From: Tenrec ecaudatus
Lineage: Eukaryota; Chordata; Mammalia; Afrosoricida; Tenrecidae
Assembly: GCF_050624435.1 (NCBI RefSeq)
Contig: NC_134543.1
Span: forward strand, 126,447,475 to 126,511,474
Direction: 5' to 3'
Length of the DNA: 64,000 nucleotides
The position numbers were made by a program, and so were the translations under genes. Position 1 is the first letter of the stretch; each line of letters starts with the position of its first letter. Shown in pieces: positions 7,454 through 54,723 of this stretch. The notes beneath the pieces were generated by a model that saw nothing but the letters and a program-made list of their open reading frames with translations, made no database searches and was not told the origin of the DNA.

Positions 7454-8200
7454 TTCCCCCTACCCCCTCCCTCCCCTCACCCAACCTCCCAAGCCTTGGC
7501 CAGTTGCCAGGGCTTCCCCAGAAGAGGGCAGGGGAGTCTGAGGTTTGGAGACCTCACTTTGGGACTGTCATCTGCTTCCTCTTCAGGGTGGGTCAGCACC
7601 CTCCCCTCCCTGACTTAGGTTTGGAGGTTCCTTCTCCTTCCCACCCTTCTCCATACATCCTGAGGTCAAAGGACCACATGCAGAAAGGGGAGAGAGCACC
7701 GCATGACAGGAAATGGTGACTCTTAGATCTCTTCTCTCTAGGCTCCAGGGGGGGAGGACTTGAGTAGGGCACTGGGGATAAGACTACGGAAGAGCTAGAG
7801 AATTACTGTCGCCAGGCTTTCGGGCCGACATGTCTGTAAACCCATTCAGCATCCCATTGTCTACTCTGATGCCCTCAAGATTCAACTGGGCAGCTAGCTG
7901 GCTCCATGATGCCGAGCCGTTATCACTTGCTTTATTTCTAGGGCATCCCAGGAAGCTTTCCAATGATCCTCTGCCAGGGCCCCTCCCGGGACCGGGCCTC
8001 TCTCACCCAGCCCCGCCCCTCCACAATGCCTTGGTGCTCAGACCCCCAATGGGAGCAGGTTGGGGTGAGCCGGAGGCCCCGGGCTGAAGGGGCAGTGTTG
8101 CTGTTCATAGCTTTTGTTCCATTGGCGTTGCTGTTGGATTTAATTTCAGTCTTCCTGATTCTTCCCTTCTATAAAGTGTACATTACCAAGTTCCTTGTTT

Positions 8201-8250
8201 TTATATACATATATATATATAAGTATATATATATATACACACACACACAC
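8201..8250. repeat. (TA)n(CA)n microsatellite
   Basis: An AT-rich dinucleotide tract ends in CA repeats about 45 bases before the proximal ZNF609 poly(A) signal. Confidence 0.9.
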
Positions 8251-8294
8251 CAACTGTACTCTTTTTGCCTGTGTACATTCAGGCAAGAAGAGAA

Positions 8295-8300
8295 AATAAA
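8295..8300 (+). terminator. ZNF609: Poly(A) signal, proximal (ZNF609)
   Basis: AATAAA lies in the context AGAAAATAAATC, followed by T-rich sequence. It would give a 3' UTR of about 3.3 kb. Confidence 0.65.
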
Positions 8301-8893
8301 TCTTTTTAAGAGACAATCACAAATCTGTGAGGGCTGCTGGTTCTTTCTCCTGGAATTTGCTGCTGAGCTGCCCCCTCCCCACCTCCTCCCCTCTTTCCTG
8401 ATCCTGCTCCATCCCAATCCTCAGCTTCACCTTCCCTGGTTGACGGCAGCTGTTTGAGCTCAGTATCCAGACTCACCCGAGCCCAGCCACCATGCCTCTC
8501 ACCACCCTATAGATGCCAAAATGGCTTTGGGATTAGGCCACTCACCTCGGAAACTATGCATCTGGGAGCTCTCTGCCTAAGAGTCTGCACTGGTAAAACT
8601 TACCTGGCCCATGGCTTCTTAGGTGTGCAGCGGAAACTTGCCCCCAGCTCCAGGCCTCTGAGTGCTCAGCCCAGAGCCTTCATGCTGCTGGCCTGCTGTG
8701 ACCACCCACCACAACAAGGGCTCTGGGTTTGAGTTGAGAGCATTTGATCAGCATTTCAAAGAGCCCAGCCAACATTCTGAAACCCCCAGCCAAACCACTG
8801 TTCTGCCTCAACTTGCTCTTTTTCCTCCTACTTCCTTTTCATAATTGGCTTTGGAATTGAAGTATATTTTTAAATTATTTGTTGTATTTATTG

Positions 8894-11000: not shown

Positions 11001-14000
11001 CTGTGGGAGAGAGGGTGGAGAGAATGCTGACCACACTACAGGTGCACAGCCAAGATGGGGGGAACGACTTCTCGGGAAACTCAGCCCACCCTCCCACTTG
11101 CTGTGCAGGAGCCCCGTTCCGCCCTAGACGCCACTGGCCACCTCACCTCTGTCTTCCCGGCCCTTCCTGAAGCAGACAAAGATGTAGTTCACGCTCATCT
11201 TCTCTTCAGCAAATTCCAGTAGTGCTAACAATCTAAGAGGAGCAGAAGATGGCTCAGCCCCCTGGGCTGCCATCCCATTTCCAGCCCCCCCTCAAAAGGC
11301 AGGCTTCACATGACACGGGATTAGAAAAGGGGGAGTGTGTCCGGGAGAGGCTCGCAATTGAAAACCTGAAACCCTAAACTTAGCCACAAACCCTGAGAAA
11401 GGTATAATGAATTTTCTTCTGAAAACCAGTTCTTCACCTGAAGTTAACACGACCTAACTTCCAAATGTAGCTCACAAATAAGCATTTCCCAGGCTCTCCC
11501 AGGAGGCCCTCCGAGAGTGCCAGGCATGGCCAGAGACAGAGTGTGGGCCCTGCTGCTGCCCACTGGGACTCCCTAGGGCGGCCAGGGGTGGTTCTTAGGC
11601 CCTGGCTGGTGAGTCTGGCCAGCCCCATGATCACCCCCTGCAGAACCTAAGCTTCCTGGACTGGGAGCCGCACTGTGCGGGGGATATCGGGGGAGTTAGT
11701 GTCTGCATAAAGAATGAGCCATCAACTGGCAGAGATTTGATTAATGTGATAATGATCTACTTTATCACTAGAGCTGCCCTGGTGTACTGGCGAAAATTAA
11801 CCGGTTACAAAATGGTATCTGCTTAGGGAACCGAGCACTGGGGTGGAGTGGGCCCAGAAGCCCCCCCTCCCTCTCCTCTCCTCCCCAGTCTCCACGCATC
11901 CCCTTCTCCGGAGTAGCTTCCCCTCCCCCTTCCTGGCCTGGGGCTCCTTACCCTTCTTTGCTGCCGTCAGCTAACAGTCCATCTGGGATTTCTACAAACA
12001 GACTCTGGCTGGACAGGACTGCGTCCCAAGAGGAGGCCTTCACCTCGGTGACCTCATACTGAAAGTGGATGATGTGAGGTTTTTCATCGTTCACAGGGAG
12101 GTCCTGGGTCACAGTAAGCTTCTCGTCCTGGGGAAAGAATCGGGTCAGAGGACTGGGTCCCTCCTGCCTCTGGGCACATCATATGCTCACTAACCAGGGT
12201 GGTGCTGAGGATCCCCTGGACCCAATCTCACAGCAGCAGGGAATCGAAGCACCCTGACAATGTCCAGCTGCCCAATGGCTAGACGGAGCCATCAGTCACC
12301 ACACTGAGGCATCACGGGAAGGGGAGATTGACCTGGTGTCCCTAAGGTGCCGGGTATGGTGCAAGGTGCCTCTCCACATAACTCGTCACTGCAGGCACAT
12401 GCAGTAGGCATTGATAGCCCCATTTTAAACATGAGAGACCAAAGTCCGTTAGGTAACTGACCCAAGGCTCCACAGCTCATAAAGGCCACAGGTAAGATTC
12501 AAATCCAGGTCTCCCTAACTCCCAAGTCCACACTTTTTCCACAGCACCACGCCATTCCCCTTCCCTCTGTGAAAGGGAAACAAGCAAATAAGGACATGGG
12601 AGCACCTAGGGGGCCAGAGTCAGGTCAAGGCTACCTCCAGGTGGACAGCAGGACCCACAGATCCCGCCTGGGGTCTGAGTCTGACACCCTGTTATCCTTC
12701 CACTCCAGTCCAGGAAGAAGCTAAGCCAATGTCTGAGCCACAATCACACGACGAAAAAGCAGTGAACACTCTCAGGGAGAAGCAAAGGGCTGAAGATGGT
12801 CCCCGAGGTTCCTGCAAGCGCTGGGCCCTGCCCTGTGCTGCCGGGCAGCAGTAACTGAGCTGCCAGCCCTCGCCCCCACCCTGACCCAACCCCTCCCAAT
12901 CAGAAACCGGTCCCAGTGTCCTGGGAAATCGCTCCAGGTGCTTCAAGGGAAACAGGAATGCTTTTAAAAATGCTCTAGGGCAGTGGTTCTCAAGCCTTCC
13001 TAATGCTGCGACCCTTGAACACAGTTCATGTTGCAGAAACCACCAACCATAAAATTATTTTCGTCGCTACATCATAACTAATTTTGCTCCTGTTATGAAT
13101 CGGGTGACCCCTGGGAAAGGGGTCACGACCCACAGGTTGAGAACCGTTGCTCTAGTGCCTTCATACTCAGAACCCTGAGTACACACTAACCACCTGAATA
13201 CTGGCCCCAAGCTGAGGCTGGCAGGTGCCCCCCAAGTCACCCCAGAAGTCATATCTCAGGCTCAGTCCAGTATTTCCAATCTCCCTGCTGGCCCAGAGAC
13301 TATAGGAATGCCTTGTCTCCAGCCTCCTTTAGGCCTCCTTACCTTATATATTAGAGCTGAGAGAGAAGGATCCCTGCTGGCCCCTCGCCCACCGGGGATC
13401 TTCGACAGTGGGTGAGGGGCATCAGGAGCACCACAGAGGCCCCGGAACAATGTGCCTGCAGCACTGGAGCTGGGGACAGCTACTCAAAGGCAAAATGCTG
13501 CTGTAAGAGACAGAGAAGGAGACAGTGACCACAATGGCCTCATGACTAACGCAGCACCCCACCCCTGCCTCTCTACAAGTGATCGGCTCGCCACCACTCT
13601 TCCTACACGTAGTTACTTCAACTTTAGTGTCCAGACATCTACACTCCTAACAGAGGAAACTATGCTCCCTGCAGAAACTGAGCAGCTCCATCTGACCGGA
13701 CGGGAGTGCCTGTCAGTGTCAACTGTCCTCGTGCGTTGGGCAGAGGCTGGGAGGAATAAGATCCAGGCTGGGCAGCTGCCTGGGCAAAGGCTACCTGCGA
13801 AAGCACTGTTCCCATCCCTTTTCCAAGCCCCCAGCGAGGGCCAGGCTGGAGAGCATGGGCATATGGAACCCCAGAGGCCACCTTCCTAATGCTGGCTCAT
13901 TCCCCATCTTGCAAAGAAATCATGTACCCAGATCCCTCTAAGGTCCCAGGGCAGAGGTGCACGATAGTACACCAAGTGGTCCATGGTTGGTTTGTCCCTA

Positions 14001-30708: not shown

Positions 30709-31622
30709 GTGTAGAAGGACCACAGAAACAGTTTTCTTTCAGCTGGCAGGGGCAACAATACACTCTCACAGCTCTCCCCCAGGGGTACATCAACTCTTCC
30801 ACTCTGCCATAATTCAGTCTGAAGGGATCTTGATCACCTGTCTCTTTCACAGACTGTCACACTGGTCTATTATATTGATGACATTATGCTGATTGGACTC
30901 ACTAAGGAGGATGTAGCAAAGACTAAATTCATTGTTACATCTGCTTGCCAGAGGGTGGGAAAGCAACCCAACAAAGATTTAGGCACCCTCGACATCAGTA
31001 AAATGTCTAGGGGTCCAGTGGTGTGGGGGATGTCGAGATATTCCTACTATTGCATCTGCCCTCCACTTCCCAACAACTACACAGAAGACACAGTGCCTAG
31101 TGTGCCTCTTAGGATTTTGCAGGCAACATATCCTTCATTTGGGTGTGCTACTTTGACCTATTTATCAAGTGATGTGAAAGGCTGCCAATGTTGAGTGGGA
31201 CCCAGAACGAGAAAAGGCTCAGGCAGCCGTGCAAGCTGCTGTGCCACTGAGACCATATGATCCAACTAACCCGATGGTGCTAGAGGCGTCAATTGTATAT
31301 AGAGATGCAGTGTGGAGTCTTTGGCCAGCCCCCTACTGGCGAATCACAACACAGACCCCTGGGATTTTGGAGTAAAGTTCTGCCACCCTCTGAAGACAAT
31401 TACTCCCCTTTGGAAAAACAGCTGCTGCCTGTTACTGGGCCTCTGTTGAGACCGAACGCCTCACCATGGTCACCAAGTCACCTTGAAGCCTGAGCTGCCC
31501 ATTATGAACATGGTATTGTCTGACCCACAGGGCCATAAAGTTGGACAAGCACAGCAACACTCCATTGTTAAATGGAAGTGGTAGATACAAGATGGGGCTA
31601 GAACAGGACCTAAAGGTACAAG

Positions 31623-52850: not shown

Positions 52851-53351
52851 TTCCTAAATTCTGAGGACCCGAAAGGACCTCATTTAATGCAGAATGCCTG
52901 TTGGAGGTCAAGCTGGTGTGTTGTGGTTCAAGATCTGAAATACTGTCCTTGGCTCATAGTCTTACTTTGCCCCGTCTATTCAACAATTATTTCCCAATCC
53001 CTCTCTGATGTTTTCTTTACTTGAAGTCTTGACACTTGACTGATTTTGCATTATTTTGAATATTCTCTGCCAAACAAAGGGGTCTTTCTATTCAGAATCT
53101 TGCATTTCTTAGAGGCTACTGGGTTTACACCTTGTCTTGTCTTGTCTGGGGCCCCACTTTTCTTGTGGCAACTTCTCCCCTGAGACCCTATGATGCTTCC
53201 ATCAGTCTACTCTCACTGAGGTTTTCCATAACCATCAGGCACAAGGATGTAGGGAGGATGTCCTGTTGGAATTAGGGCTCCTTCTCTTGGTTCTCAGCAT
53301 CCCCAGGGATGGTTTTCCTTTTTCTCTAAAATTTCTCCTCACTGCAGGCTT
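52851..53351. other. Sequence before the CAMLG retrocopy
   Basis: I recognise nothing here. It contains no CpG island, but it would have to supply any promoter for the retrocopy. Confidence 0.45.
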
Positions 53352-54723
53352 AAAAGGAGGAACTAGAGTCCGCACCGTCTCCCTGACTGGAGGGAGGATG
53401 GAGCCCGTGGCCGCCGCGTCGGATGGCGGGGAGCGGCCGGGCTCTCCTGCGGGCTCGGGCCTGTCGGCTTCGCAGCGCCGGGCCGAGCTGCGGCGGCGAA
53501 AGCTGCTCATGAACTCGGAGCAGCGCATCAACCGCATCATGGGCTTCCACAGGCCCGGGAGCGGCGCGGAAGATGAAAGCCAGACGAGATCAAAGCAGCT
53601 GGACAGTGATAAATTGAACCCCCTCACCATCCCTTCCGTTTCAAAGCGGGTAGTGCTGGGGGATTCCGTCACCACGGGAGCAGCTGACCAACAGGGTGGA
53701 GTGGCAGAAGCAAAGGTGACCCAACTGGGAGACAAACTAGACTCTCTCATTAAACCACCTGAATGCAGTGCTGATGTCAACATTGAGCTCCGGCATCGGA
53801 ACCGAGGGGACCTGACCTCGGACCCAGTCCAGAGGGCTTCTCGCCACGGCCTGGAACAGTACCTCTCCAGATTTGAAGAAGCAATGAAGCTAAGGAAACA
53901 GCTCATCAGTGAGAAACCCAGTCAAGAAGATGGTAGTACAACAGAAGAATTTGACTCTTTTCGAATATTTCGATTGGTGGGATGTGCTCTTCTTGCCCTT
54001 GGAGTCAGGGCTTTTGTTTGCAAATATTTGTCCATATTTGCTCCATTTCTTACTTTACAACTTGCATACATGGGACTATACAAATATTTTCCTAAGGGTG
54101 AGAAGAAAATAAAGACAACAGTACTAACGGCCGCACTTCTGCTATCGGGAATTCCTGCTGAGGTGATCAATCGGTCCATGGATACTTACAGCAAAATGGG
54201 CGAGGTCTTTACAGATCTCTGTGTCTACTTTTTCACTTTTATCTTTTGTCATGAACTGCTTGATTATTGGGGCTCAGAAGTACCTTGAAGCCTACAGAAC
54301 TTGGAAGGAGCTTACAAGAAACCATTTTTCTTCCATACTACAGTATCTCTAAAGGAGGCAAGCTGGTTACACCTTTATGTAATTCTTTTACATCTATGGG
54401 TGGTAAAATCACTCAATTAGAAAGGGAATGGCAGGTTCCGTGATTTAAAATGATCTCATTTGTATTAGTACTGATGTGAAGCATAGACTACTGAAGGTCA
54501 TGAATTGATTTTTCTTGATTAGATTCCTAGTCTTTACCTTTCCCTCACTTTCTCAGAGTTGTAATCCCACTTTTGAGGGCTGAGCTAATGCTTTTAGGAG
54601 GGCAAGTGAACATGGTCTCAGCCAATCCTAAGAACTGTTTCTTGTATTGTGTCATGCTGTCCTAAGTAATGGAGCCATAATAAAAATAAGTGTCGAATGT
54701 TAAAATAAAAAAAGGAGGAACTA
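53352..54723 (+). mobile_element. L1-type retrocopy of CAMLG mRNA with 14-bp duplications
   Basis: AAAAGGAGGAACTA occurs at 53352-53365 and identically at 54710-54723. The first copy is preceded by TT, giving the L1 endonuclease site TT/AAAA. Between them lie a 32-base 5' UTR remnant, the intronless coding region, about 0.4 kb of 3' UTR with AATAAA near 54.68 kb and a short A-rich tail. CpGs in the 5' third are well kept, consistent with a young or unmethylated copy. Confidence 0.95.
53398..54288 (+). CDS. CAMLG: CAMLG-like retrogene, intact 296-residue frame
   Basis: The protein is CAML/GET2, the ER membrane partner of GET1 (WRB) that receives tail-anchored proteins from GET3 (TRC40) and was found as a cyclophilin B-binding calcium modulator. 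The frame opens [15 protein letters not shown] and ends [10 protein letters not shown], 296 residues as in human. The N-terminal basic GET3-binding motif is whole ([20 protein letters not shown], residues 27-46). Three hydrophobic segments fall at about 189-209, 211-229 and 268-287, and the C-terminal half looks almost identical to human. Human CAMLG is split into four exons, whereas this copy has none. No stop or frameshift is present. It may be an expressed retrogene or a very young pseudogene; a promoter is not evident. Confidence 0.93.

Follow-up and report, generated by a model that had tools for sequence, protein, structure and literature searches.

An intact and apparently very young retrocopy of CAMLG in a tenrec genome

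L1 elements prefer target sites reading TT/AAAA, and a G at the 5′ junction of retrocopies can originate from the mRNA cap. Young retrocopies of the L1 type are well known in mammals: passages of PMC7692494 give the absence of introns, a poly(A) tract and target-site duplications as hallmarks of L1-mediated retrocopies, and an excerpt of PMC5860796 names untemplated 5′-junction bases as a hallmark of L1 integration. The locus described here, which lies in a stretch of 64,000 nucleotides of tenrec DNA analysed as a whole (the window), is a copy of CAMLG, the gene of GET2/CAML, an ER receptor subunit for GET3/TRC40. It shares with the processed retrocopies of mammals, as portrayed in sections of PMC8826619 and PMC7692494, the lack of introns, the A tract at the 3′ end, the flanking duplications, the L1-type site and a multi-exon parent elsewhere. 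It is ordinary in kind; its 5′ end is apparently of full length and its frame is undamaged. Our literature search returned no paper that pairs CAMLG with a retrogene or with a processed pseudogene, and the main text of one retrocopy survey (PMC13251070), searched by word, mentions elephant once and contains neither tenrec, Afrother- nor aardvark.

Anatomy of the copy

Positions 53352-54723 of the window are occupied by an intronless CAMLG copy of 296 codons with zero disabling changes, composed of the following features.

53352-53365, plus strand: 5′ target-site duplication, AAAAGGAGGAACTA, with an exact second copy at 54710-54723
53366, plus strand: extra G separating the 5′ duplication from the start of the parental match; the parent has C here (junction comparison)
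53367-53397, plus strand: 5′ UTR, from CAMLG exon 1; 0 differences in 31 compared bases
53398-54288, plus strand: CAMLG frame, 296 codons and stop; 826 bases compared with the parent, with 7 differences, all of them synonymous
54289-54703, plus strand: 3′ UTR from the parent; 3 differences in 415 bases
54679-54684, plus strand: AATAAA signal within the copied 3′ UTR
54704-54709, plus strand: short poly(A) tail remnant, interrupted by T; the parental match is lost from here on
54710-54723, plus strand: 3′ target-site duplication, AAAAGGAGGAACTA, an exact match to the 5′ one
Empty site, the flanks joined without the copy: GGCTTAAAAGGAGGAACTAACATT

The first-pass annotation had placed 14-bp duplications at a TT/AAAA site, and the exact pair is indeed found at both ends of the copy, on the plus strand of the window: AAAAGGAGGAACTA occurs exactly twice on that strand of the 64 kb, once per end, while in the 3.5 kb scanned for direct repeats the nine other two-copy pairs listed are all imperfect (75-93% identity). 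The insertion site reads TT/AAAA, with GGCTT preceding the 5′ duplication. At the other end the parental match stops 19 bases past AATAAA and gives way to a short A-rich tail, the A's of which merge with those of the duplication, forming an A-rich end that begins at 54702 and contains one T.

What could have produced such an arrangement? The most likely course of events would have a CAMLG mRNA spliced and polyadenylated, then reverse-transcribed by the L1 machinery, with the cDNA inserted at the TT/AAAA site and the 14-bp target duplications made in the process. The site, the duplications, the tail and the G at the 5′ junction all point to L1 as the probable agent. The extra G at 53366 may be untemplated, a copy of the mRNA cap, and a cap-derived G would make the copy full length, which suggests that its 5′ end represents the complete end of a capped mRNA.

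The insertion site probably lies outside genes. No sign of a host gene was noticed around the copy, and none of the four open stretches compared with Pfam besides the CAMLG frame, out of 75 listed, reached a curated cut-off. Several other elements populate the surroundings. The only Rfam match of the window at gathering score, an antizyme frameshift element (RF00381, positions 13369-13424, minus strand, 74.2 bits), probably belongs to an OAZ gene, which from gene order we take to be OAZ2. A short open stretch at 30823-31194 (plus strand) carries a YIDD motif, presumably of the kind found in reverse transcriptases, and has no Pfam match at E 0.01. Past the end of the window, on the minus strand, there seems to be a KRAB zinc-finger gene (L014:1798-3879 and 8173-8481), with many C2H2 fingers encoded in an open stretch of 694 codons and, some 4.3 kb upstream of this stretch, a KRAB box. 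The CAMLG frame itself extends without a stop some 68 codons beyond its ATG in the upstream direction, into the flank (53194-53397, plus strand), which is probably due to chance.

Parent gene, older pseudogene and encoded protein

The separate multi-exon parent sought at the suggestion of the first-pass annotation is present in the same genome, where a search followed by DNA comparison located a four-exon CAMLG on contig C22. A second, much older relative lies on contig C62.

L009 1369-1571, 2953-3413, 5569-5634 and 6266-6872: matching exons of the parental CAMLG; all introns GT-AG
C62:94459500-94461400 (L010), minus strand: old CAMLG processed pseudogene; 73-77% identity, gaps, not intact

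The three introns of the C22 parent are precisely absent from the copy and its four exons are joined exactly. The start given for parental exon 1 is the start of its match to the copy. Directly upstream of this exon lies GC-rich DNA that has no counterpart in the copy. Pieces of SEC24A and DDX46, which from the human genome we take to be the expected neighbours of CAMLG, were not recognised within 10 kb on either side of the parent in an inspection by eye of open stretches of at least 75 codons, by which short exons can be missed.

The C62 pseudogene is likewise a spliced CAMLG copy, but one derived from the 3′ part of the mRNA: its match to the query of 1372 bases begins only at base 688, leaving the 5′ half of the mRNA without a match, and its 3′ UTR is interrupted by a SINE-like insert roughly 190 bases long. 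The insert may be akin to AfroSINE; no match to it was found in the window, where three short AfroSINE motifs gave a single 10-base match.

The claim of an intact, intronless frame of 296 codons is confirmed by the uninterrupted stretch at 53398-54288 and by a complete match of the 296-residue product to the Pfam family PF14963 (Get2_like; profile positions 1-270 of 270, E 6.3e-144). The C-terminal 111 residues agree at 110 positions with the CAML chain of PDB 6so5, which we assume to be human, and the single mismatch, at residue 234, is also present in the parent. Every compared residue is equal between the proteins of copy and parent, and in the 22 codons touched by the uncompared parental gap the residues of the copy are those of the 6so5 CAML. 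The N-terminal basic stretch, a putative GET3-binding motif, is identical in copy and parent, in keeping with the claim that this motif is preserved. The three membrane segments would be retained as well, judging from the identity to CAML.

Divergence and the alternative readings

Over 1272 compared bases the copy is separated from its parent by 10 substitutions and no indels, a comparison that leaves out 65 parental coding bases; this amounts to 99.2% identity, or 0.8% divergence. Seven of the differences are coding, all synonymous (codons 9, 59, 73, 90, 143, 212 and 263), and three fall in the 3′ UTR. The low divergence is the reason for reading the copy as very young, a possibility raised in the first-pass annotation, and the frame and target duplications are still intact. 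If mammals accumulate about 2-5 substitutions per billion sites annually, its age would be, very roughly and with a wide error, 1-2 million years. The accompanying claim that the CpGs have not decayed is nearly correct, but a slight decay is visible: the parent has 49 and the copy 47, four having been lost in the copy and two being present only there.

CpG context suggests losses on the side of the copy at 53424, 53574, 53826 and 54458, and in the parent at 53667 and 54695. The C62 pseudogene, the only outgroup found within the genome, covers few sites in a noisy alignment; it supports the base of the parent at 54186, which places that difference on the side of the copy, and weakly supports the base of the copy at 54695. 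Neither source gives a side for the differences at 53614, 54033 and 54339.

We consider it probable that this is an ordinary and very young L1-mediated retrocopy of spliced CAMLG mRNA, inserted at a TT/AAAA site, and most likely neutral, untranscribed or weakly transcribed, and destined to decay, its frame being intact because the copy is young. Two observations count against this reading: an insertion of such youth would be expected to have a longer and unbroken A-tail, and not one of the seven coding differences alters the protein. Random coding changes in this frame would be nonsynonymous or nonsense in about 70% of cases (69-73%), with or without CpG hypermutability. If half of the divergence is assumed to have arisen in the copy, the probability of seven silent changes out of seven in a neutral copy is 0.002-0.004; it rises to 0.03-0.05 for a share of one-fifth and to 0.10-0.14 for one-tenth. 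Over all ten differences the corresponding values are 0.01-0.03, 0.11-0.16 and 0.25-0.32, and across assumed shares from 70% to 10% the probabilities span 0.001-0.14 for the coding differences and 0.004-0.32 for all ten. A model of full constraint also fits imperfectly, since synonymous sites carry 7 of the 10 differences, an excess relative to the UTR even with every replacement change removed (P 0.02-0.11). The case for protein-level purifying selection in the copy is suggestive at most on these figures.

The intactness of the frame was considered as evidence of function and rejected. A neutral copy with 3-10 changes in its frame would escape stops and frameshifts with a chance of about 0.6-0.2 (assuming a stop share of 0.05 and an indel share of 0.12; the computed stop share is 0.03-0.04), so that a neutral copy this young stands a reasonable chance of remaining intact.

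A variant of the neutral reading, compatible with it, is that the insertion still segregates as a presence/absence polymorphism and that most of the ten differences represent variants carried by the source allele or by the parental allele that was sequenced. Differences of this origin would account for the coding ones being all silent, and the silent pattern would then have no bearing on selection in the copy, as is equally the case if the changes arose in a constrained parent. The low divergence, the exact duplications, the absence of indels and the two CpG losses that apparently occurred in the parent (53667 and 54695) are in agreement with such a scenario, and among 2025 recent retrocopies of house mice, 977 were each confined to one individual, according to a portion of PMC8826619. 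The four CpG losses on the side of the copy speak against it, even if they may have been present already in the source allele, as does the base of the parent being favoured by the C62 pseudogene at 54186. We regard this variant as quite possible, somewhat short of probable.

Could the copy instead be functional? In this case it would be transcribed from a borrowed promoter or from one seeded by a CpG island, wild-type CAML would be made, and replacement changes would be purged. The comparison of synonymous and nonsynonymous differences recommended by the first-pass annotation leaves room for this outcome, with none of the seven coding differences nonsynonymous, where about 70% would be expected of random changes; ten differences in all carry little power. 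The copied 5′ end is also locally rich in CpG, with an observed/expected ratio of up to 1.06 (200-bp steps) against 0.27 in the window, and the CpG-rich stretch of exon 1, brought into a CpG-poor region, is a possible candidate seed for transcription. However, the DNA upstream of parental exon 1 is missing from the copy, and the same silent pattern is expected if the differences lay in the source allele or in a constrained parent. Nor is a gain from extra protein obvious. According to PMC6695381, CAML exceeds its partner WRB 4-7-fold in molar terms and is degraded when WRB is short, so that extra CAML need not mean extra receptor. This weakens the idea, advanced in the first-pass annotation, that the copy supplies additional dosage of the receptor subunit, and it leaves room for other roles. 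PMC6695381 also suggests that surplus CAML might make capture more efficient or act in further processes. On balance, we find a functional retrogene unlikely.

It is similarly improbable that the tenrec carries a species- or genus-specific second CAMLG that arose by retroposition a few million years ago at most, is already under purifying selection at the protein level and serves, with different regulation, as an additional source of this ER insertion-receptor subunit. An assembly artefact, whether by cDNA contamination or by a misjoined contig, is scarcely credible, as we found no point in its favour, and it is contradicted by target duplications at an L1-type site, by ten substitutions from the parent and by the position of the copy inside a 127 Mb contig, about 1 Mb from its end.

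Significance of the copy

If the locus is merely a young retrocopy, as the neutral reading has it, it offers a clean example of its kind, complete with an apparently cap-derived G, and its 99.2% identity to the parent over the compared bases is a warning for the mapping of reads. Should the copy prove to be expressed and constrained, it would constitute a natural test of whether an obligate receptor subunit can have its gene duplicated while that of its partner is not.
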